64,000 nucleotides of DNA. Origin: Cliona cf. orientalis. Taxonomy: Eukaryota > Porifera > Demospongiae > Clionaida > Clionaidae. The notes under the pieces are model-generated. The model saw only the letters and a list, made by a program, of their open reading frames with translations, was not told where the DNA came from and searched no databases. The position numbers were made by a program, and so were the translations under genes. Positions 2,216 through 21,900 of the stretch are shown piece after piece. The DNA lies in contig OZ005689.1 in the NCBI GenBank assembly GCA_963930775.1, forward strand, positions 24,984,058 to 25,048,057, read 5' to 3'. Within the stretch, counting starts at the first letter, position 1. Each line of letters starts with the position of its first letter.

Positions 2216-3700
2216 CAGATACTTCCACCATCACCATGCAATTTATTGTGGTGGAAGTACTTGTGAAAGTGGCTTGTCAGTCGACGACAGTCACAGACTG
2301 AAGACACAAAGCTGTCTCCATGCTACTTATCCTGATGGAAGTATCTGTGAATGTGGCTTGTCGGTCCACGACAGCCACAGACTGAAGGCACAGAGCTACC
2401 TCCATGCTACTTATCTCAGTGGAAGTATCTATGAAAGTGGCTTGCCGGTCCACGACAGCCACAGACTGAAGGCACAGAGTTACCTCCATACTACTTATTC
2501 CAGTGGAAGTATCTGTGTAAGTGGCTTGTTGGTCCACACAGGTACAGACTGCAGCCACAGAGCCATCACCATGCTACTTATCCTAGTGGAAGTACCTGTG
2601 AAAGTGGCTTGACAGTCCACAACAGTTACAGACTGCAGCCACAGAGCCATTCACCATGCAACTTATTCTGGTGGAAGTATCTCTAAGTGGCTTGTCGGTC
2701 CACGACAGCCACAGACTGAAGGCACAGAGCTATCTCCATGCTACTTATTCTGGTGGAAGTATCTGTGTAAGTGGCTTGTAGGTCCACACAGTTACAGACT
2801 GCAACCACAGAGCCATCACCATGCTACTTATCCTGGTGGGAAGTACCCGTGAAAGTGGCTTGTCTGTCCATGACAGTCACAGACTACAGCCAGAGCCATC
2901 ACCATGCAATTTATAGTGGTGAAAGTACTTGTGAAAGTGGCTTATCAGTCCACGACAGTCACAGACTGAAGACACAGAGCTATCCATGCTAACTGAAGGC
3001 TATCTCCATGTTACTTATTTTGGTGGAAGTATCTGTGTAAGTGGCTTGTCGGTCCACGACAGCCACAGACTGAAGGCACAGAGCTACCTCCATGCTACTT
3101 ATCTCAGTGGAAGTATCTGTAAAAGTGGCTTGTCGGTCCACAACAGCCACAGACTGAAGTCACAGAGTTACCTCCATGCTACTTATTCTGGTGGAAGTAT
3201 CTGTGTAAGTGGCTTGTCGGTCCACACAGTTACAGACTACAGCCACAGAGTGAAGTACTTGCTACTTATTCTGGTGGAAGTATCTACCTGTAGACTGTGA
3301 CTGTCATGGATTGACAAGCCACTTTCACACAGAGCTATCACCATGCTACTTATTCTGGTGGAAGTATCTCTGAAAGTTGGTGAAAGTGGCTTGTCAGTCC
3401 ACGTATTCCACCAGAATAAGTAGCAAGTACTTCAATCTGTGGCTGTAGTCTGAGCCTGTCATGACTGAGAAGCCACTTTCATTGACACTTGCACTGGAAT
3501 AAGAATTGCTTTTGCTACTTAATAAGGTGAATTGCTTTGAATGTTTGCAGCCAAGGAGCTAAATCCATGGTACTTATTCTGGTGGAAGTATCTGTGAAAG
3601 TGGCTTTTCGGTCCACTACATCAGACTGCAGACACAGAGCTAACTCCATGCTACTTATTCTGGTGGAAGTATCTGTGAAAGTAGCTTTTCAGTCCACTAC
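2216..3700 (+). repeat. 84-bp tandem repeat array, block 1
   Basis: About 17 imperfect units of ~84 bp, each carrying a GTCCACGACAGCCACAGACT core, CTCCATGCTACTTAT and a GTGGAAGTAT...GTGAAAGTGGCTTGTC segment. The unit is 28 codons long, so long open frames run through it on both strands. I regard these as by-products, since stops, indels and local inversions (about 3290-3330 and 3395-3480) break them. The same unit recurs at 7045-7162, 10248-11460, 13266-14120 and once at 42690-42730. Confidence 0.9.
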
Positions 3701-3705
3701 CACAG

Positions 3706-4300
3706 CATGAACAATGTCAGTTTCCAAGAGTTCTCAAACTTGTGCACTTCACATTCACAAGCCAGTGCACAAATTTGCGACAATGCCAAGTATGCAAGCT
3801 TGCAAACCACTTGCAAACTATTAAGCCAGACCACGAAACGTGTTTCCCATTTGCCCATGCGCTTGCGCATGTTCATTTTAATATGCGCATGCGCTTAAGC
3901 GCTAATGATATGTAGCACGTGCAGGTCAGGAGCCCAGACCAGAACGTGCGCGAGAAAACTCACCCAGCTAGCTACTAGTAGCTGTCATAGTCTGAGACAG
4001 GCGTGCTACCTTTGATTCCGTAGCCATACTTATCAGGCCAGGTGGAAAGGACCTTATAGGTGAGTATCTTAAATGTGTGTATATGAGGGGATCCAAATGG
4101 GGTAGCAGTATATCTACCGAAATCACCTTTCATACCTGATTTAATATTCTATTTCAAGTCAGTAATCTCAAGGACCACATTAATTTTAAATAGCCTACCG
4201 TACGTGGCCCACCATCGCAGACAGCATAAATGAAGCCTATTCAAAACGATCAGTAAGAGAACCGGCCACGCCAGCCTAAATCCTTATACTCGGGTATAAG
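3706..4300. other. non-coding spacer with TTGCA/GTGCA motif cluster
   Basis: At 3735-3835 there is a cluster of TTGCA, TGCAAG and GTGCAC words in both orientations. Further on are alternating GCGCATGCGC runs near 3855-3895. No gene is supported. Confidence 0.4.
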
Positions 4301-4319: not shown

Positions 4320-4935
4320 TTTAGTAGCATGAGTTTTAGCTTTGCGCGGACTCGGACTCTGTGTTCAGCTACATGTAAGTTGAGCCCGTCATGTGTTTTT
4401 GTTGTGCGCGGACTTCGTCAGTCACGGCTGACAATCTGTATTCAGCTAAATAGAGCCCCCCATGTGTTTTGGCTGTGCGCAGACTTCGTCAGTCACGGCT
4501 GACAGTCTGTTCAGCTAAATAGAGCCCACCATGTGTTTTGGCTGTGCGCGGACTTCGTCAGTCACGGCTGACAGTCTGTATTCAGCTAAATAGAGCCCAC
4601 CGTTTGAATTTGCTGTGCGCGGACTTCGTCAGTCACACGTCTGTGTTCAGCTAAATAGAGCCCACCATTTGAATTTGCTGTGCGCGGACTTTGTCAGTCA
4701 CGGCTGACAGTCTGTGTTCAGCTAAATAGAGCCCCCCATGTGTTTTGGCTGTGCGCGGACTTCGTCAGTCACGGCTGACAGTCTGTGTTCAGCTAAATAG
4801 AGCCCCTCATGTGTTTTGGCTGTGCGCGGACTTCGTCAGTCACGGCTGACAGTCTGTGTTCAGCTAAATAGAGCCCCCCATGTGTTTTGGCTGTGCGCGG
4901 ACTTCGTCAGTCACGGCTGACAGTCCGTATACATT
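4320..4935 (+). repeat. 71-bp tandem repeat array, about 9 copies
   Basis: The unit carries GCGCGGACTTCGTCAGTCAC, then GGCTGACAGTCTGT, then TTCAGCTAAATAGAGCCC. The copies starting at about 4341, 4409, 4477, 4547, 4617, 4682, 4752, 4823 and 4894 are nearly identical in the 3' half of the array and drift at the 5' edge. GTCAG and CTGAC arms in each unit could form a small hairpin. Confidence 0.9.
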
Positions 4936-8803: not shown

Positions 8804-10102
8804 TTATAGTACATATCCTGAGTGTGTAATCCATGATTGGCACTGGGTTGCAGTAATTGAATCAAATCCTGCTTGGATAACGTCCGTAAGGCTGACTCCA
8901 CACTGCAGTAGGGTATCGTGCTTTTTCAGGTAGCCCTTTATGTAACTGAATGCTTCTTCAGCAGGGTTGAGGTGAGGGCTATAATATTATGGTGGCAGGA
9001 AGAATAGAAGTATCCCAGACTGTTGGATTAGCATCAACAACTTCGTGGACATGATGCACTGAGCAGTTGTCCATCACTAGAATTGAGTTGGGATTTTGAC
9101 CATCATATGACATCATATTGGGGATGAGACTACCTCAAAGGAAGTAAAAAATTTCTCACCATTCACAGACCCTGATACTAAATCTACTGCAACGATTCCT
9201 CCTGCTGATAATGCTGCAATTGCATTCACTCTTGTCCTCTAGCTAACAATCTGTGCAACACTGGTGTTGTGCCTCGGATGATGTACATGTTGATTGATGA
9301 CCTCTGTGTTTAAGTAGATTTTTAGGGATAAGAGATAATCACAACCACTATACATCCCTACACTTGCTTTTTGCGTATATAGCATGAATCAATAATAATA
9401 TAAAATTACTGACAGGGAGAACATGAATTTCTCCCACATGCAAGTCAAGAACACTCCAAGGATAGCATGCCTTGAATAAGTTGGTCTGTAATTATAATCA
9501 AGAATAGCAAGCGTAGGGATGTATAGTGGTTGTGATTATCTCTTACACAAACAAGATTTTTAGGGATAAGAGATAATCACAACCACTATCTACTTCCTTA
9601 CGTGATCACGTTTATCACTACCTGTCTCATCCACCCAAACGAATTGATTATCATTCCTAGAAAAGACAGAGCACTGGGCCATAAAGGCACCACAAAGTGC
9701 ATTGCATCTTTGTAATGCGACCTGCCTGATACGCTTCCTTGTTATTCCATAGAGTCTCATTATTCTGCATACAGTTGATGGTGAAACTGTTATGCTTGTG
9801 AGATCAGCTACTTTCTGGCACAGTTCTTCAAGATAGACGCTTGTTTCATTTAAGATGATACCAATTAATATTAACTCACTGTGCTCATCTAACACTCTCA
9901 AATCTGGTCTCGAATCATGTCTAATAGCTTGTATTTCACCTGTACATTCAAATTGATGGTAAGTCCGGCATGCTGTACTTGTTGCTATATTCAAATTTTT
10001 GGCTATATCAGTGAAACACAATCCCGTAGCCATTCGCTGATAAACAATTCGCCATCTAATATCGGAAGTATACGCCTTCTTTCTGTATGGCTCGGCAGAC
10101 AT
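8804..10102 (-). pseudogene. IS630/Tc1-mariner DDE transposase, decayed
   Basis: ATG at 10102. The N-terminal ~65 residues form a helix-turn-helix (RWRIVYQRMATGLCFTDIAK). They are followed by a second DNA-binding part and VSPSTVCRIMRLYGITRKRI. The first catalytic Asp is in VWVDETGSD just before 9590, where an unrelated inverted-repeat element interrupts the gene. It resumes below 9309 with AIAALSAGGIVAVDLVSGSV. The second Asp is in SILVMDNCSVHHV and the acidic third residue is in HLNPAEEAFSYIKGYL, ending at TAA 8804-8806. Frameshifts near 9140 and a 6-base insertion with a stop before YSPHLNP make it non-functional. It is the transposase that would mobilise the 7163-10245 element. Confidence 0.85.
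9309..9598. mobile_element. inverted-repeat element (family M1), rearranged copy
   Basis: A segment GGGATAAGAGATAATCACAA...CATCCCTACACTTGCTTTT is repeated in inverse at the other end, and an extra direct copy of the first part follows. It splits the transposase gene. Homologous complete copies are at 45325-45700 and 54635-55045, which carry an outer GAAGTAGGGATGG arm that is reduced to AAGTAG here. Confidence 0.75.
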
Positions 10103-10247
10103 CAGTAGCAGTAGAATACGTACGTTGCTTTTCAAATCCACCGCCTCAAGATGAATGCGCATGCGTACAATGGGATTTTCCGTTCCGTAGCTATAGTACG
10201 CCGTGCGCACGCTATGGAAAATTTGAACGCAACTGAAATCCGCTGTA

Positions 10248-11460
10248 CTTCCACCCGAATAAGTAGCATGGAGAGAGTTCTGTGGCTGCAGTCTGTGGCT
10301 GTTGTGGACTGACAAGCCACTTTTACAGAGACTTCCATCAAAATAAGTAGCATGGAGGTAGCTCAGTGGCTGCAGTCTGTTGATATAGTGGACCGAGAAG
10401 CCACTTTCACGGATACTTCCACAAGAATAAGTATCATGGATGTATCATGGACGTAGCTCTGTGGCTGCAGTCTATGGCTGTCGAGGACTGACAAGTCACT
10501 TTCACAGACAGAATAAGTAGCGCGGAGATAGCTCTTTGGATGCAGTCTGTGGATGTCGTGAACTGACAAGCCACCTTAACAGATACTTCCACCAGAATAA
10601 GTAGCATGGAGGTATAAGTAGCATGGTGATAGCTCTGTGGCTGCAGTCTGTGTCTGTCATGGACCTACAAGCCACTTTTACAGATACTTCCACCAGAATA
10701 AGTAGCATGGAGGTATAAGTAGCATGGTGATAGCTCTGTGGCTGCAGTCTGTGTCTGTCATGGACCTACAAGCCACTTTTACAAATACTTCCACAAGAAT
10801 AAGTAACTTGTTGATAGCTCTGTGGCTGTCGTGGACCGACAAGACACTTTCACAGATAGTTCCACGAGAATAAGTAGCATGGAGGTATAAGTTGCATGAT
10901 GATAGCTCTGGCTGCAGTCTATGGCTGTCGAGGACTGACAAGTCACTTTCACAGATACTGCCACCAGAATAAGTAGCATTGAGATAGCTCTTTGGATGCA
11001 GTATGTGGATGTCGTGAACTGACAAGCCACCTTAACAGATACTTCCACCAGAATAACTAGCATAGAGGTATAAGTAGCATGATGTTAGCTCTGTGGCTGC
11101 AGTCTGTGTCTACAAGCCACTTTTACAGATACTTCCACCAGAATGAGTAGCTTGGTGATAGCTCTGTGGCTGTCGTGGACTGACAAGTCACTTTCATAGA
11201 GACTTCCATCAAAATAAGTAGCATGGAGGTAGCTCAGTGGCTGCAGTTTGTTGATATAGTGGACCAACAAGCCACCTTAACAGATACTTCCACCAGAATA
11301 AATAGCATGGGGACCGATAGGTCTGTGCCTGCAGTGTGTACTTCCACCAGAATAAGTAGCATAGAAATAGCTCTGTGGCTGCAGTCTGTGGCTGTAGTGG
11401 ACTGACAAGCCACAGATATTTACTTTAGGATACGTAGCATGGATATAGCTCTGTGGCTGC
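10248..11460 (-). repeat. 84-bp tandem repeat array, block 2
   Basis: About 14 imperfect units in minus orientation relative to block 1, with several partial units and small duplications (for example two near-identical stretches at 10600-10700). It ends directly upstream of the plus-strand hammerhead ribozyme at 11483. Confidence 0.9.
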
Positions 11461-11482
11461 AGTCATGAGTGCATGTTACTGT

Positions 11483-11564
11483 GGGACCAGCTGATGAGTC
11501 CTCCCACTCTAAAAATAATGGACGAAAAGCTCACTGTATCATATAGTGAACTTACTGGTTCTCC
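11483..11564 (+). ncRNA. type I hammerhead self-cleaving ribozyme
   Basis: All invariant core positions are present: CTGATGA (11491-11497), then stem II GTCC (11498-11501) with GGAC (11520-11523) around an 18-base loop, then GAAA (11524-11527). Stem III pairs 11527-11538 with 11542-11553, with one C/A mismatch and a 3-base loop. The cleavage position follows A11554 (TTA triplet). Stem I pairs ACCAG (11486-11490) with CTGGT (11555-11559) and extends by wobble pairs to 11483/11562. The layout with an open stem I is type I. The ribozyme would cut its own transcript and is likely part of a repeat-derived transcript of the adjacent 84-bp array. Confidence 0.85.
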
Positions 11565-11569
11565 AAGCA

Positions 11570-12946
11570 TGAGTATGATATTCGTATTAAATAAGTACAA
11601 GAGCATGATTTATTGCCATGATATGCGCATGATACTCACATGAAATAAATACAAGGTCATGATACCAATGATTTTATTGCCATGATATGGGGCATGATAC
11701 TCATATTCAATACTATAATTCAAGAACATGATGCCAATTGATACGGGGCATGACATTCATATAAATATTAATCAATATCATATATTTACCCATTATACCC
11801 ACCTTGTATTTTTCTTATATAAACTGCCCTGGTTGTGGCTGTAATTGGGCTACAACCAGGGAATCTCATACGAATGCTCTCGTCGTCCATCAGATCAGTG
11901 AACAATCCTCAGTGAGCGGCGATAAATTTGTGGGTGTGGCATGGAAGTAACCTGCACACCCATGTACGTCCACATGGCGCATGTGCAATATAGCAGATAG
12001 TACACAATCAAGCTAGTGTCAGTATCATGACTTACGTGGAACATGAAATGAAACATGAAACACCTACATGAAGTAGTGAGTTTATGTTAAAGTTTTGTTT
12101 CCTAATTTATGTATATTTTCTAGTTACGCAGTTCACGCCAAAGTCAGTGGCCAGTTACAAACATAAGTAAGCTATTAGTAACTGTTAACACGATCAATCA
12201 TAAGAAAAGTGTACAAGTTCATTAGTTCAAGAGCATTAAAGTGAAATAGGGTATACAAAGTAATGGTACTAGTAAGAGTTTACATACAGTGACTGAGATG
12301 GCTGAAATGAACAAATGCCTAGCAGGTGTTCTGCATTGACAATGTGCAATAATTAATGTTTGTGAGGAAATGATTGCGTTGCACTTACGATGAAGCCATT
12401 ATCAGTAACTGGACTGGTGACTGGTTCCTGTAAATATTAGCAGTGAGGATTAATCAATTGAATGTGATTGGAAAAAGATCGTTATGCCAGCGCACATGAT
12501 CTACGCATGGCTGTAACCTCGTGTTGAATTTCAATCAAAGGAGACTACTTACATGTGCAGTGGGTTGGACTGGGACAATGGATAGATCAAATTCTGATTC
12601 TGATGCTCATAATATTATTACTGAACGATACCCTATATCAACCATACTTCTATATTACTATAACACTAGGGATGCAGCCAAATACTATGCATTGTAGTTC
12701 ATTGTCAGCATTCCCACTGCAGACGCCACAGATACCCACCCCAATCACCTCCTCCTCCCCCACACCCTACCCCACCCCTAAAATACATCCCCCAACTCCC
12801 CAGTAAGTTCGTTCATTTATTGAGTGAAATATTACTGTATCACTTAATTCAAATTTACCACCAGCCCTTTAAAGACCACCACCACCACTACTCCTGTTGC
12901 TCACATGACCAGGGCAGTAAGTGAAACATACTTAGCATAACTGTAT

Positions 12947-12983
<37 letters not shown>

Positions 12984-13265
12984 ACACAGAGAATGAACAA
13001 GAACTGAGAAACGTGTTGATTGCATTGATCAAGTGACATTTGAAACATGTTTGGCTGTAGATGTAATGTGTACAAAGTAAAAAATTAATTGTTTGGCTCC
13101 TTTAATGTTTGTACATGTGCACAACTTAAAAAAGAATTTTTTGTCAAAGTGTAATCTAGTGAGGTCACAACGAGACATAATGGGTGTAGCCGAGCATACA
13201 TATCACTGGTATATCACTGGTATCAGTACATATTTCAATGGCTTATTGATATCCGGGTCAAACGG
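11570..13265. other. spacer between the two ribozyme-bearing blocks
   Basis: At 11575-11770 there are about three imperfect ~65-base repeats of GGCATGATACTCAT and ATTGCCATGATATG words. A TATATAAA sequence lies near 11817, just before an inverted pair (CCCTGGTTGTGGCTGTA and TACAACCAGGG). The rest has no supported gene. A CT/CA microsatellite is at 12950-12983. Confidence 0.5.
12950..12983. repeat. (CT)n(CA)n microsatellite
   Basis: A run of CT dinucleotides changes directly into CA dinucleotides. Confidence 0.9.
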
Positions 13266-14120
13266 ATATCAGTCTGTGGCTTGTCGGTCCACGACAGCCA
13301 CAGACTGAAGGCACAGAGCTACCTCCATGCTACCTGTCTCAGTGGAAGTATCTGTAAAAGTGGCTTGTCGGTCCACGACAGCCACAGACTGAAGGCACAG
13401 AGCTACCTCCATGCTAGTTATTCTGGTGGAAGTATGTGTGTAAGTGGCTTGTTGGTCCACACAGTTACAGACTGCAACCACAGAGCCATCACCATGCTAC
13501 TTATCCTGGTGGACGTATCTGTGAATGTGGCTTGTCAGTCCACAACAGTCACAGACTAAAGGCACAGAGCTATCTCCATGCTACTCATCCTGGTGGAAGT
13601 ATCTGTGTAAGTGGCTTGTTGGTCCACACAGTTACAGACTGCAGTCACAGAGCCATCACCATGCTACTTATCCTGGTGGAAGTATCTGTGAATGTTGCTT
13701 GTCAGTCCACAACAGTCACAGACTGAAGGCACAGAGCTACCTCCATGCTACTTATCTCAGTGGAAGTATCAGTAAAAGTGGCTTGCCGGTCCATGACAGC
13801 CACAGACTGAAGGCACAGAGCCATCACCATGCTACTTATCCTGGTGGAAGTACCTGTGAAAGTGGCTTGTCGGTCCAGAAAGACACAGACTGCAGCACAG
13901 AGCTACTTATTCTGGTGGAAGTATCTGTGAAAGTGGCTTGCCGGTCAACGACAGCTACAGACTGAAGGCACAGAGTTACCTCCATGCTATTTATCTCAGT
14001 GGAAGTATCTGTAAAAGTGGCTTGTTGGTCCACGACAGCCACAGACTGAAGGCTGGTGAAAGTATCGGTGAAAGTGGCTTGTCAGTCCATGACAGCCACA
14101 GACTGCAGCCAGGCACAGAT
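13266..14120 (+). repeat. 84-bp tandem repeat array, block 3
   Basis: About 10 units in plus orientation, the same orientation as block 1 and opposite to block 2. It is followed at once by the minus-strand hammerhead ribozyme. Confidence 0.9.
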
Positions 14121-14137
14121 GATACGTCCATACAGGT

Positions 14138-14218
14138 ATCCACCAATAAGTTCACTGTAGGATACAGTGAGCTTTTCGTCCATTATCTTTAGGGTGGGAG
14201 GACTCATCAGCTGGTCCC
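14138..14218 (-). ncRNA. type I hammerhead self-cleaving ribozyme
   Basis: Read on the minus strand: CTGATGA at 14210-14204, stem II GTCC (14203-14200) with GGAC (14181-14178), GAAA at 14177-14174. Stem III is 8 perfect pairs (TCACTGTA with TACAGTGA) plus an inner part with one mismatch and a TCC loop. Cleavage follows the A opposite T14147. Stem I pairs ACCAG (14215-14211) with TTGGT (14146-14142). The closing pair is G-U here but G-C in the plus-strand copy, and stem III has G-U in one copy and G-C in the other, so the fold is kept while the sequence changes. The orientation relative to the 84-bp unit is the same as in the other copy. Confidence 0.85.
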
Positions 14219-14896
14219 ACATCATGCAACAGTAAGTTCACTCAGTGCTGTTAAGGACTGTCTCATACTGAAATTTCATTCTTTCTCGTTGATATTCAGA
14301 TGCTTGTTGAGGAAAAGAGAATCAAGTAATGGACTCTATTCAAGTACCATATGAAACTTCAGTCCAACCTCTCTTGGAATAATAATTTATTAACCGCAAT
14401 TAATTTATTATTGTTAAGTTATTAAGTAATTAAACCACGCCCTCTCAAAGTATAAATGCAGATTTCCATCATTGTTCCACCAACTTTTTGTGAACCTTAA
14501 GTTGATTTATAGTAAATATAGTTTATGTTTAATTTCACCGAGGGTTATTCATCAACAACGAATAGATAGGATTTTATTCGCAGTAATGTTGGTTTCTTAA
14601 GCTTTGACGGCCAATATTCCCGCATATATCTCGGGCTTACGTTAATATCTTCGCTTATCCCTCGGTATATTCATTTAAACTTCTTCGTTACACTGTATTT
14701 CAGTATAGACGGGAGAGTATTAGGACTGGATCAATGTTGGTAAAGTTCGAGACACTTTTTGCTATGCTCAACTGCGACTGCGCGACCTTCGAGCTAACGA
14801 TTACATAACTATCACATGACCAGGTTCAAACAGCTAACCGCGCGAGAAACTGTGTCATCTAGGGAGCAGCTGAGCGTATGCATATGCATCTTATTC
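14219..14896. other. non-coding stretch
   Basis: It contains a possible TATAAATG box near 14452 and AT-rich sequence. No gene is supported. Confidence 0.4.
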
Positions 14897-15970: not shown

Positions 15971-18900
15971 CTAGTCTAAGTCTTCTGGATCTTTGTATTC
16001 TGTCTCTTCATTTCGTTCTTCCTTGATAGCCTTCTCTTTCAATGCCTTTCGAGCATTACGACTCTTTCCATTCAGTTTCTTTTGCACGATTCTTGCCCAA
16101 CGTTCTTCTTCACCACTTTCACACGGATACTTATAGTTCAGTTGATCTGTGACCAAAGTTTAAATGATTAGCATTAGCACATCAAATGAAATTGAACTTA
16201 CATTTGATTGCATTCATCACTTTTTGATCCACCAGCTGCCGTCCCTTGGCAGGAGTACAATTTGAATTAGCCAGGACTTCATTTGAAAAGAACAGTGATA
16301 ACATTCGCTGGGCATATCTGTGAGGCTCGCTAGGTAGACAAGTATTCAGCTGGTGAAATTCAGCTAAGGCAGACTCATTGGGCAATTTGACAAAACATTT
16401 TAGAGCAGTGCCTGGATTCCCGCATAGTACTTCAAGTGGGTCTGCATATACGATCATATATGTTGACTTACATGAAAATCTGACATCATATAATAATATT
16501 ATTATTTGTACCAGGTCCTCTATGATGTTGAGGTTTATCTACTATTAGCACATCCTCTGAGGCCTGAGTCTCAAACTCACCACCTACCACCTATGATCAG
16601 TAAGAATATTATCATAACACTGTGATATGCATACACGTACAATCCCTCACCTTTCTGTCTTTCTTCTTTTGTAGTGCTAATCTTAAATTGTTGACTGCAT
16701 CCATATTCTTCTTCATCATTGATGTTAACTGTGAGAAATGGTCTTGCATCCACAGTTTGACCTGCTGAAGATCTGTGCTTGAAGTAGCTCCACACGGATA
16801 GTCATTCTATAATAATGGAATAGTAGTTAACCCATAGCACCTCACATTAATACAAAATTTCTAATCATAGTAAATTTTACCTTATGACTTGTGAGACCCA
16901 CATCAAGATCGTAAGTCATTGGAAAGACTGGATCATCACTAAGTGCATGTGTCTGTGAACTATATGGGAAATAATTTCGTAAGTTGGTCTGAGTGACCTA
17001 AATTAAAATATCATCAGAATTGACTATTACATCAGGGTTTCATCTAGTTGGGGGAGCTTCCCCCCCAAAAGAAAATATCAAGAGAGAAGAGAAGGGAGTA
17101 GAGAGGAAGAACATGCATATAACTTAGTGATACTAAACAACACAAAGTTTTGGCACTTGAGGTACATGGTGCGTGAAATTAATTGCCATGCCCCCTTCCA
17201 CACCAAACCAAACAATATATCATAGAGCCAGAAATTTTTTCAATCTTTATAGAATGGATATTAAAATGAAGTTTAATGAGTCATTAAAGTAGGTTAATTG
17301 AGAGGTACACATCATACACCTTGTAAGGGCTGCTGCCCTACAGGCAGCCCTTGCAAGGTTGTGAGAAACATGTAGCAGCCAGTCCAAACCAGTCTGGCAG
17401 GAAGTAGCCATGCACCTGCCAGGGCTGCATCCTCGCCTATTTATAGCTGACTCACGATGAGTTAGAGACACATGAGAGCAGCACTGAGAAGTAGCTATCG
17501 ATCAGCAGAACGTTCGTGAACAGAGGAGCAACTTTCAGATGGCACACCTTTCCAGATCGTCCCGCAGTGCTAGCAACACCACTAGTGGATCGGCTAGCGC
17601 GAGTAGCGGCGAAGCAGCTGGCTCGTCGGGGGATGGTGCTACAGAACAAATGGTGATAACCCCGCAAGCTCCAGGTGGTCCCGGCGGCGAAACCAGTGCT
17701 ACAGCGATAAGGACGGCCGTTCTGGAGGTTCTCGCGGACCCGGAAGTCATCCGGCAGTTTGGAACTGCGGTTGCTGCAGCATCAACTGTCCCATCCACTC
17801 CGGGTGGTACCACGGAGGCGGCGGCCGGTCCGGGAACCGTTTCGGGTGGAGCAACGGCTCAGGGGGAAGCAGCTTCCACCGCCCCTGGCCCGTCTGGATC
17901 TGGCGGCACCGCTGGTACCGGTAAGAGTTCATGGTTTTCATTTTCTTCAAGTTAGTTTATGTTTAGGCTTTAGCCATGTACTACGTAGCTTGGGGGGGGG
18001 GGGGGCTTCCAGCGCGGCTGGTGGCTGTTGTAGGAGTATCCTTCTCAAATGCCTCTTATACTTCTGTTTATGCTATACGCATGCAGTGGCAGCCTTATTT
18101 CACAAGTATTCCCCTACCCTACCCCACCCTCACTCTTCAGGAGCATGTTCTATAGTCTAACTTATCTCAACCAGAAGGTGGAAGCTAGAACATGCACAAA
18201 GTGCATGGCTCCAGACCACTCTCTGCATGAATGTGCACTAAATTCTCTGGATCAGCCCCAGCTGCTTACTCCTCCTTCGACTCCTTTGGCTTCCTATTCT
18301 CGTGTCCAGGAGCCTCGATTCCGACAACAGCAGTCGGGACAGAAGTCTGCCCCTCCAAGGAAGCGTGCGAAGAGAGAAGGCACCCCTAATCCCGTGCCGG
18401 GATCGGAGTCCTCGAGTTTCTGTTTCTCCTGGAATGAGGGACAGTGTTCGAGATATCCGAAGGAGTGCCCTCGTCGTCACCAATGTATCAGGTGTGGAGG
18501 CGAGCACCAGCTGAGTGGATGCACTGCAACTGTCACTCTCAAGGACTAGCACAGATCAACTGACTTGCTACAATGTGTAGAATCCTCACTGTGATTTTTC
18601 TTTTTTTTTTTTTTTTGCTAGTGGTGAGCTGCTCGGTCAGCCTTGCCTTGTTGGTAATAATTATGAGCTGCTCAGTCAGCCTTGCATGTTCTATCAAACA
18701 TATTCTTGCTTTATCTGAACATTATGGTTGTCTCTATGGATTTGCATACACAATCAATAGGGAATATCACTCCAGACGGGAGATATAGTTACACTAATGA
18801 TCTTCTGAGCCTTCGGGCAGCGGTTCCCTCATTGGTCTAGTTACCTGCTGAGTGCTCACGCATAGTGTCCCCTCTGCAAGCAGAGGTGTGGGAAAAGCAC

Positions 18901-21900
18901 CTTCAAGACCACCCGGATAGAGATTTTGTTGGGTATCTTCTTGATGGAATCCGCAATGGCTTCCGGATCGGTTGCCACAATTCAATGGGCCTTCGTTCAT
19001 CAGCCAGCAATATGTTGGGTGCAGAGAGGCACCCGAAGGTGGTCCAGGAATACCTCCAAAATGAATTGCAGGCAGGTCGCATAGTCCCGGTTCCTCCCAG
19101 GTGGCGCGCTAATGTACACCTCTCAAGATTTGGAGTCATTCCCAAGAAGCGTCAACCTGGAAAGTGGCGGCTGATCGTGGACTTATCTTCTCCAGACGGG
19201 GCAAGCGTCAATGACTTCATTGACACAAGTGTCTGCTCATTGAAGTATGCATCAGTGGATGATGCAGCAGAGTTTGTACTCAGATCTGGTCAAGGCACTC
19301 TGCTAGCAAAACTAGACATTAAAAGTGCCTATAGAAATATCCCAGTCCATCCAGAGGATAGACACTTGCTAGGAATGCGGTGGCAAGATTCCGTCTTTGT
19401 AGACGCTTGTCTTCCTTTCGGGTTGCGGTCAGCTCCCAAAATATTCAATGCGACAGCTGATGCACTTGAATGGATTATCGCTCATCAAGGGGTATCCTTT
19501 GTTGAGTTTATAATACATTACCTCGACGACTTCCTACTTGGAGGTAGCCCACATACAGAAGTATGCCAGAGGTCCTTGGACCTATCTCTGCAACTCTGCC
19601 AGGATGTCGGTTTTCCAGTAATGCGAGAGAAAGTCTTTGGCCCTACTACTGTCATAGACTTCCTTGGTATCCTCATTGATACTGATTCTATGGAGCTTCG
19701 ACTGCCTCGAGAGAAATTACTTCATCTAAGATCTCTCATTCAGGCGTGGCAAGGGAAGAAATCGTGTACCAAACGTCAGCTCCTTTCCCTCATTGGATAC
19801 CTTCAGCATGCAAGCACAGTGATCAAGCCAGGCCGTACCTTCCTCCGGCGTATGATAGATACATCAAAGAGGCAGGTACATCTGGATGCCCCACTTCGGC
19901 TCAATACAGAGTTCAGAAGCGATATTACATGGTGGGCCCTGTTTCTGGACAGGTGGAATGGAGTATCTCTTGTAGCCTCCCTTTTGCAGGCTTCCAGTTG
20001 ATCAGCATCTTACGACTGACGCTTCCGGATCGTGGGGATGTGGTGCTTTCTGTGGCAGTAAGTGGTTTAACCTGTCATGGAAATCATGCCCTGCAATAAG
20101 TGATGCTCACATCTCTGTTAGAGCTATTACCGATTATCATCTCTTGCGCTATCTGGGCAGAGTCTATGCAGCATAAACACATTCGTTGTCACTGTGACAA
20201 TGCAGCTGCAGTCGCAATGATCAACAGGAGATCGAGCTCTCATCCACTAGCAATGCATCTCCTGAGGTGTCTCTTCTTTATCTGTGCCAAGCACAGTATC
20301 ACTCTATCGGCAGTTCATCTAGCAGGATGGAAGAACACAGCAGCAGATACCCTCTCTCGGGATAATACCCAAGTGTTTATGAATGAGGTGAAGGAAGCGT
20401 CATCTGACTCTTCGACCATCTCTAGGGATCTCCTTGAAGTACTAGTCAGCCGCACCCCCAATTGGCTCTCAGCTGACTGGTCAAAAGCATTTGTCATGAC
20501 TGTGTAGTTATAAGTACAATGATTGTATACATGTAATAGTATCACGTGATCTAGATTATTATATATTTGTCTACCTTTATGATTCAAAGATAAGATGTGG
20601 CAGAGCCTGCAGATGGCAGCTGAGCATTATTTCTCAAGGGGGCTGGCGGCATCCTCTACAAGAACCTATACATCAGGAACGAAACGTTACATACAGTGCT
20701 GCAGCTTATGTAAGGTCACTCCTCTCCCTGTAACGGAAGCGAAGCTCTCAGCTTTTGTATCTATGTTGGCCAGAGATGGACTATCATTTTCAACCATCAG
20801 ATGCTATCTGGCAGCAGTACGGCATCATCAGATCGCTTGTGGCTTAGGCGACCCGGGCGTACCAGCAATGTCCCGGCTGGAGTACATCCTACAAGGAGTA
20901 AAGAGAGAAAAATCGGGTCAACATGGAGTTCAGAGGCAACCCATTACCCCGTCACTTCTGCTGAGGATGTTTTCATTCTGGAGTCACCTCAAGCCCACCG
21001 AGCTAGCAAAAGCTAAGATGTTTTGGGCGGCAGCATGCTTAGCTTTCTTCGGATTTCTAAGGGTGGGGGAATTCACTTCCCCCGGGGTGAATACCTTCGA
21101 TGACGACATCCACCTCTCTCCACGAGACATATCGGTAGACAATCCGCAACGTCCATCTGTTATGTACGTCACTCTGAGGCAGTCTAAGACAGACCAGTTG
21201 AGGAAAGGTGTGACCTTAGTTTTGGGAAAGACGGACAAAACATTATGTCCGGTTTCATCAATGATGAGTTACCTGGTTGTCAGAGGATCCTCAGCAGGAC
21301 CATTGTTCGTCTATCCGTTTCTGACACGTGATCGCTTCGTGGAGGAGGTCCGTAGGGCACTTGGCTCTGCAGGAGTAGACCCCGCATTATTTAATAGCCA
21401 CAGCTTCAGAATCGGGGCTGCGACCACGGCAGCGGCTAGAGGACTGGAAGACAGTCTCATCAAGACACTCGGGAGATGGGAGAGCTCAGCCTATCTTCGC
21501 TACGTCAGAATCCCGAGATCGGAGTTGGCCAACTACACAAGAGTTCTTGCCGTGGTTCCCGAATAATTTACGGACTCTATAGAGGGGAGCCCCACCCAAA
21601 TAAGGCGATGATGATATTATTGTGCTGTTAAAATTCATTATTGGATCTCCTTGAAAACTTGCTTGGGGCGCAGGACTCATGTCCTGGCATGGGGAATGGC
21701 GTCAGAGGTCGTGGTAGGCCCACCTCTGACGTATATTATGGGCCCCAAGCCGTAACTCACTCTGGTAACCGGCTAGCTGCATGCCTGTTACCAGGAGGAG
21801 GCTGGTGGATCCTGGGATTCTCCCCAACCTGGGACTTCCACCAAACAACTACTCTGGTCAGAGTACCAGCGGCATATAGACTGACGGTCCTCTGTGAAGC

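Follow-up and report, generated by a model that had tools for sequence, protein, structure and literature searches.

The stretch analysed here, 64,000 nucleotides of the sponge Cliona cf. orientalis (assembly GCA_963930775.1, contig OZ005689.1, positions 24,984,058 to 25,048,057 of the forward strand; hereafter the window), contains two putative type I hammerhead ribozymes on opposite strands, copy A and copy B, each adjoining an array of an 84-bp tandem repeat (Table 1). A scan of both strands for CTGANGA, a 4-bp stem II, GAAA, three stem III pairs, NTH and a 5-bp stem I found these two complete motifs and no others, in the places proposed by a first-pass annotation made from the letters alone, and the same rule matched none of 150 dinucleotide shuffles of the window. 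A stricter earlier rule with four unbroken stem III pairs had returned no motif, since the fourth stem III pair is a C-A mismatch in each copy; it was loosened afterwards, and the loosened rule was also the one applied to the shuffles. Stem III comprises nine or more pairs in both copies. The cut position predicted by the scan for copy A coincides with the one annotated before, and the two copies differ as had been described: stem I closes with G-C in copy A and with G-U in copy B, and one stem III pair is G-U in copy A and G-C in copy B. The arrays were located by Tandem Repeats Finder and an iterated unit profile, and the profile confirmed that both ribozymes, each at the edge of its array, run in the same direction relative to the 84-bp unit. 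Copy A lies between two repeat types, the 84-bp array and degenerate TGATAC repeats.

Table 1 Predicted ribozymes and adjoining repeats, in window coordinates
Feature	Position	Strand	Basis
Hammerhead ribozyme, copy A	11481..11559	+	Scan and shuffles, covariance model, 28 family members, pair counts, core conservation
Copy A pseudoknot strand GTGGG	11481-11485	+	
Copy A stem I, ACCAG with CTGGT	11486-11490 with 11555-11559	+	
Copy A core, CTGATGA; GAAA	11491-11497; 11524-11527	+	
Copy A stem II, GTCC with GGAC; 18-nt loop II	11498-11501 with 11520-11523; 11502-11519	+	
Copy A stem III, one C-A mismatch; predicted cut after A11554	11527-11553	+	
Hammerhead ribozyme, copy B	14142..14220	-	Scan and shuffles, covariance model, 28 family members, pair counts
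Copy B pseudoknot strand	14220-14216	-	
Copy B stem I, ACCAG with TTGGT	14215-14211 with 14146-14142	-	
Copy B core, CTGATGA (begins at 14210); GAAA	14210-14204; 14177-14174	-	
Copy B stem II; loop II	14203-14200 with 14181-14178; 14199-14182	-	
Copy B stem III; predicted cut after A14147	14174-14148	-	
84-bp tandem array, unit in copy A's direction, ends at 5' edge of copy A	10246..11487	+	Tandem Repeats Finder, unit profile
84-bp tandem array, unit in copy B's direction, begins just 3' of copy B	13276..14133	-	Tandem Repeats Finder, unit profile
Third 84-bp array, mostly reverse with some forward pieces, without ribozyme	2228..3706	-	Tandem Repeats Finder, unit profile; no third covariance-model match
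Degenerate TGATAC/GTATCA-rich repeats directly 3' of copy A	11565..11780	+	By eye; motif density

Dispersed relatives, core and pairing of the ribozymes

A genome search with copy A gave 31 matches, which after removal of three short secondary ones represent 28 places (family 1). A second family was first seen with a core pattern, and a search with one of its members gave seven places (family 2). Complete motifs are present at 16 of the 28 family-1 and five of the seven family-2 places. A gapped core pattern, CTGANGAGTCC-N8..28-GGACGAAA, matched 25 genome places and its reversed control none; all 25 have exactly 18 nt between the stem II strands, with 8 to 28 permitted, and a shorter loop II is found in L047, which lies outside the matches of this pattern. 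Between subfamilies, alignable sequence is confined to about 96 to 106 bp, comprising the ribozyme and a few adjoining bases. The same family was sought in viral contigs, where the pattern gave two records, both with CAGATGA in place of the core, and the family-1 pattern had no matches in prokaryote contigs.

An alignment of 24 copies (19 of the 28 of family 1 and five of the seven of family 2), not filtered by the motif scan, was used for all counts of conservation and pairing given below; it omits three near-identical copies (L007, L037, L038), six that are truncated or have one half replaced (L040, L045, L046, L048, L049, L050) and two later finds (L059, L061). Departures from the commonest base make up 1.9% of cells in the eleven core columns and 15.2% in the 66 other columns. 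The hammerhead is known to tolerate change at position 7 and at the cut-site base. Position 7 is T in 20 copies and C in four, and the cut-site base is C in 15, A in eight, T in one and G in none. The core CUGANGA ... GAAA, with the A15.1-U16.1 pair and a cut-site base other than G, is present in both window copies and across the alignment with three exceptions, namely L033 (three core bases deleted), L032 (G12A) and L047 (A14 changed). Pair counts bear out the three-helix form of type I, in which helix I is open and loops close helices II and III, and the C-A mismatch of helix III is conserved in family 1. Standard pairs occupy 89.1% of paired cells against a shuffle mean of 84.8%, and the covariation score is 0.096 against 0.036 in shuffles, with none of 500 shuffles as high in either measure. 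Five pairs show two-sided changes, sliding the partners lowers pairing to 30-47%, and paired changes in stems I and III, as well as in a pseudoknot of the 5' flank with loop II, set the two families apart. The number of further pair types was not clearly above that in shuffles (80 of 500 as high).

This pseudoknot, absent from the first-pass annotation, would form between GTGGG, just 5' of stem I, and CCCAC in loop II. It is paired in 93.8% of cells, compared with 84.9% in shuffles (0 of 500 as high), and includes one G-C to C-G exchange, in four rows. As far as the alignment can tell, the copies have the pairing between stem I and stem II regions by which pseudoknotted hammerheads are defined.

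Published models score these copies below their cut-offs. Rfam at its cut-offs returned nothing in the whole window, and its hammerhead models returned nothing at E up to 5 on 2.9 kb. A 111-base slice with copy A scored 15.7 bits with RF00163 (Hammerhead_1; cut-off 34) and 12.3 bits with RF03152 (cut-off 56.3), and the family-2 copy L019 reached 19.5 and 19.2 bits with two other hammerhead models, below their cut-offs. An Rfam cut-off is a threshold of the model rather than a defining feature of the hammerhead fold; with scores below it, the case for a hammerhead rests on comparison. A covariance model built from the 24 copies scored copy A at 98.4 bits and copy B at 97.8 bits, a match by construction since both are among its training copies, and found no third full-length match in the window. 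Elsewhere in the genome the Rfam type I model matched 10 other places, four of them above its cut-off. The family model, trained without classical hammerheads, recovered two of five that were fetched (L065 at 25.7 bits and L067 at 19.7 bits, E up to 1), and gave no match to the remaining three at the same limit. Loci L064-L068 (contigs C16, C14, C2 and C1) are ordinary type I hammerheads of the same genome; in L068 two of them point the same way with a spacing of about 440 bp, an arrangement like that of retrozymes or pseudo-LTRs (LTR, long terminal repeat).

The rate of change also points to constraint on the ribozyme, with substitutions at 6/497 positions against 58/1539 in the flanks (p 0.003) in six pairs of copies that were picked afterwards, one per subfamily, from 17 compared. 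This support is modest, because the omitted pairs include some in which the ribozyme does not change more slowly: 1/83 against 6/2709 in the flanks for L039/L043, 2/83 against 4/187 for L019/L026, and 6/83 against 7/98 for L005/L031.

Several further observations weigh against active hammerheads. Both window copies have a mismatch inside stem III, and stem I of copy B is closed by G-U. The pattern that first revealed family 2 specifies some of the core letters, which favours core conservation, and much of the covariation and compensation rests on the split between families 1 and 2, and therefore on few events. For the pseudoknot taken alone, counts of changed pairs and of pair types are not above shuffles (279 of 500). 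With 12 of its 28 copies broken, family 1 is in partial decay. Moreover, the minimum-energy fold of most family-1 copies, including both window copies, is a competing structure in which GTGGG and CCCAC form a simple hairpin instead of a pseudoknot within the hammerhead fold. With the pseudoknot uncounted, the hammerhead fold lies 1.9 (copy A) and 6.2 (copy B) kcal/mol above the minimum; it is itself the minimum in L003, L035 and all five rows of family 2, and lies 0.2 to 17 kcal/mol above it in the other 17 family-1 rows, the highest value being that of the broken L047.

Relation of the ribozyme to the 84-bp arrays

A two-unit query of the 84-bp repeat had at least 430 matches in the genome. 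Among the matches listed, 12 array clusters were delimited by eye, nine of which have a family-1 ribozyme, or half of one, within the cluster or about 6 kb. Units lie within 1.5 kb of 17 of the 28 family-1 copies and within 100 bp of nine, and all nine have a unit in the ribozyme's direction. At L031 a reverse unit is also present on the other side, and array orientation is mixed beyond the immediate junction. Six of the nine same-way junctions have one common linker and two are the arms of one inverted repeat, so the nine represent few events. The first-pass annotation had regarded array and ribozyme as one element and had expected further genomic arrays with an adjacent hammerhead. Such arrays exist, and the one-element proposal holds for one lineage only; it does not hold for 11 of the 28 family-1 copies, which have no unit within 1.5 kb, for any of the five family-2 loci tested, or for the three array clusters, among the matches listed, that lack a family-1 ribozyme. 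From this comparison of loci, the joined array and ribozyme is one lineage of a wider ribozyme family.

The unit and the ribozyme are similar in length (84 and about 80), and a short same-strand resemblance can be seen by eye, as would be the case if the unit were a decayed hammerhead and the array a dead ribozyme satellite with one live unit. This origin is very improbable: the best local alignment score, 23, was equalled by 195 of 1000 shuffled ribozymes, so that a decayed ribozyme is not detectable in the unit, and the only matches of the ribozyme model within the arrays are copies A and B and the reverse reading of their own hairpins. The divisibility of 84 by three pointed to no recognised protein, and coding by the repeat was not tested beyond that.

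Many other family-1 copies are also flanked by degenerate TGATAC repeats. Up to 300 bp from family-1 copies the density of TGATAC or GTATCA is 4.39 per kb, compared with 0.84 for the window. The palindrome GTATSATAC is absent from the window; its density is 1.05 per kb out to 300 bp from family-1 ribozymes, the ribozyme itself left out, and 0.06 per kb at 300 to about 1500 bp, related loci being counted separately. The palindrome of the stem III hairpin (for example at window 11533-11548), which reads CTGTATCATACAG in several copies, is also the motif that recurs in the flanking DNA of many copies.

The family-1 ribozymes and the arrays are unevenly placed in the genome. Seventeen of the 28 ribozymes lie on contig C1, from 19.5 to 37.3 Mb, in the last part of that contig, which beyond 19.4 Mb holds 8.3% of the genome. 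Off C1 (on contigs C2, C3, C4, C5, C12 and C15), family-1 ribozymes and listed 84-bp arrays form seven clusters at relative contig positions of 0.48 to 0.67, and 46 of 200000 uniform placements were as central, in a comparison examined afterwards. This central clustering might be pericentromeric. Within the window, an open reading frame (ORF) with a transposase-like HTH_23 domain (9590-10315, -) has its start running into an 84-bp array, and a further tandem array at 4382-4925 has a 71-bp unit in about 7.8 copies that are 91% alike (Tandem Repeats Finder).

Host element and mode of spread

The borders of several copies bear on how the ribozyme spreads. Half a ribozyme, consisting of stem III and the cut site, lies just upstream in L002, L004, L005 and L031, all of the lineage with a TTA cut site, and such halves also account for short additional matches in the genome search with copy A; at L033 the shared sequence starts within 1 nt of the cut site of an upstream half, and the related window flank 12574-12849 continues differently at that border. 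These borders are consistent with a retrozyme-like route, in which a self-cleaved, perhaps circular RNA would be copied back into DNA and the copies would be truncated insertions of ribozyme multimers, and available excerpts of the literature place animal type I hammerheads typically in retrozymes (PMC7229834). We nonetheless regard this route as unlikely. Across the 28 places there is no tandem repeat with a ribozyme once per unit of about 150-450 bp, same-strand copies are 3 to 13 kb apart or further, and only half-ribozymes are close. Only the L033 border fits, the other 5' borders differ, and no target-site duplication was established; that single border at a cut site keeps an RNA route open. 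Two other loci are uninformative. L034 was rejected as a solo insertion of the ribozyme, because the sequence on its 5' side is the terminus of an unrelated, abundant repeat with at least 39 more copies, and the flanks of L016 were rejected as evidence of an empty site, since their matches are local repeats on one side only.

An inverted arrangement recurs at several loci. In the window, 2.7 kb separate the two copies; at C1:20253000-20262600 a perfect inverted repeat of 207 bp stops at the 3' end of the ribozyme; and at C1:27327170-27342254 each arm of a large inverted repeat (99.6-99.9% identity) contains a broken ribozyme and a short array. The ribozyme could accordingly belong to a larger mobile element and process its transcript; such an element might be Penelope-like, or a DNA element bounded by long inverted repeats. 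This, too, seems improbable. No Pfam family was recognised in five ORFs of at least 100 amino acids at C1:20253000-20262600, and no reverse transcriptase, which Penelope-like elements carry with a GIY-YIG nuclease between ribozyme-bearing pseudo-LTRs, in the tested ORFs of L054, L055 and L063. A nuclease-like ORF stands beside arrays at three array loci and, diverged, at four others, and a P-loop ORF is confined to the arms of a single inverted repeat; neither is therefore a general partner, and both were rejected as the element's own genes. No host element was identified among the loci read, most of them to 1.5 kb on each side, so that a more distant element could be missed.

The nuclease-like ORF is multi-copy, with an EVKN motif that we take to resemble that of PD-(D/E)XK nucleases (L054 3365-4000, -; L055 2659-3279, -), and in both loci an 84-bp array follows about 210 bp downstream; one homologue weakly matches a TnsA-like endonuclease, with a score below the cut-off. 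The inverted repeat at C1:27327170-27342254 (L046, L063, L045) has arms of more than 6 kb around a 3-kb centre, with one P-loop ORF per arm. The window also contains, at 18049-21566 (+), a presumably DIRS-like element with a reverse transcriptase ORF (18865-20001, RVT_1) and a second ORF (20595-21566) with a weak, below-cut-off match to a phage-integrase SAM-like domain.

Interpretation and relation to known hammerheads

The reading we favour, with a probability of roughly 0.75, is that the window copies are type I hammerheads of a dispersed repeat family, self-cutting and carried by satellite-rich repeats, with one lineage, that of the TTA cut site, joined to the 84-bp satellite. Their identity as hammerheads is well supported by sequence comparison, and most likely they are self-cutting ribozymes that work now or did so recently, with satellite-rich DNA as their carrier. 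A transcript passing through in the ribozyme's direction would fold, the pseudoknot docking stem II on stem I, and self-cleavage after A11554 (+) or A14147 (-) would give an upstream product ending in a 2',3'-cyclic phosphate and a downstream product with a 5'-hydroxyl. The ribozyme would be copied passively along with satellite-rich repeats. In the TTA lineage it would have become joined to the 84-bp satellite, so that a satellite transcript would be cut at the edge of the array, the 3' edge for copy A and the 5' edge for copy B.

A more specific proposal is that the 84-bp satellite is concentrated mid-chromosome and has a built-in cutter: a pseudoknotted hammerhead fused to it would trim its transcripts at the edge of the array, and would itself be a dispersed repeat outside retrozymes and Penelope elements. 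We consider this quite unlikely; if it were true, the ribozyme would act on the length or release of satellite RNA. If these RNAs do cut as predicted, standard models miss a form of hammerhead marked by its pseudoknot and its long, constant loop II, and hammerhead counts in such genomes would therefore be too low. Single dispersed hammerheads beside a satellite that is not built of ribozyme units would, in that case, also make the role of a ribozyme in satellite RNA directly testable.

In the open-access literature, no relevant paper was found on a hammerhead ribozyme in Amphimedon, none joining a hammerhead ribozyme, a terminal inverted repeat and a minisatellite, and none joining Crinkler, transposon, nuclease and sponge. 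The following comparisons draw on excerpts of the papers cited. Some families of the Schistosoma mansoni W-elements are, like the present loci, satellite-like repeats with hammerheads; there the motif is described within the element families, whereas here the ribozyme stands beside an array of unrelated units (PMC8490949). The minimal hammerheads of Penelope-like elements and Terminons (PMC7761336) are likewise type I, dispersed and in non-coding DNA. As described in those excerpts they lack a real stem III or a contact between stems I and II, in contrast to the long stem III and conserved pseudoknot of the copies analysed here, which are thus not of the minimal kind. The animal (non-LTR) retrozymes and satellite hammerheads of newts, schistosomes and corals (PMC7229834, PMC6155905, PMC7761336) share with them type I topology and residence in many-copy repetitive DNA. 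Retrozyme ribozymes occur once per unit in tandem repeats of 150-450 bp (PMC7229834), whereas the present ones are single dispersed copies and the adjoining 84-bp tandem unit is not the ribozyme's unit. Finally, pseudoknots between stems I and II are reported in about 40% of hammerheads, of types I-III and including a human intronic one (Perreault et al. 2011, PMC3088659). The contact between these two stems is common to both; here, as predicted from sequence, it is made by the 5' flank of stem I with an unusually constant 18-nt loop II, and within a repeat family.
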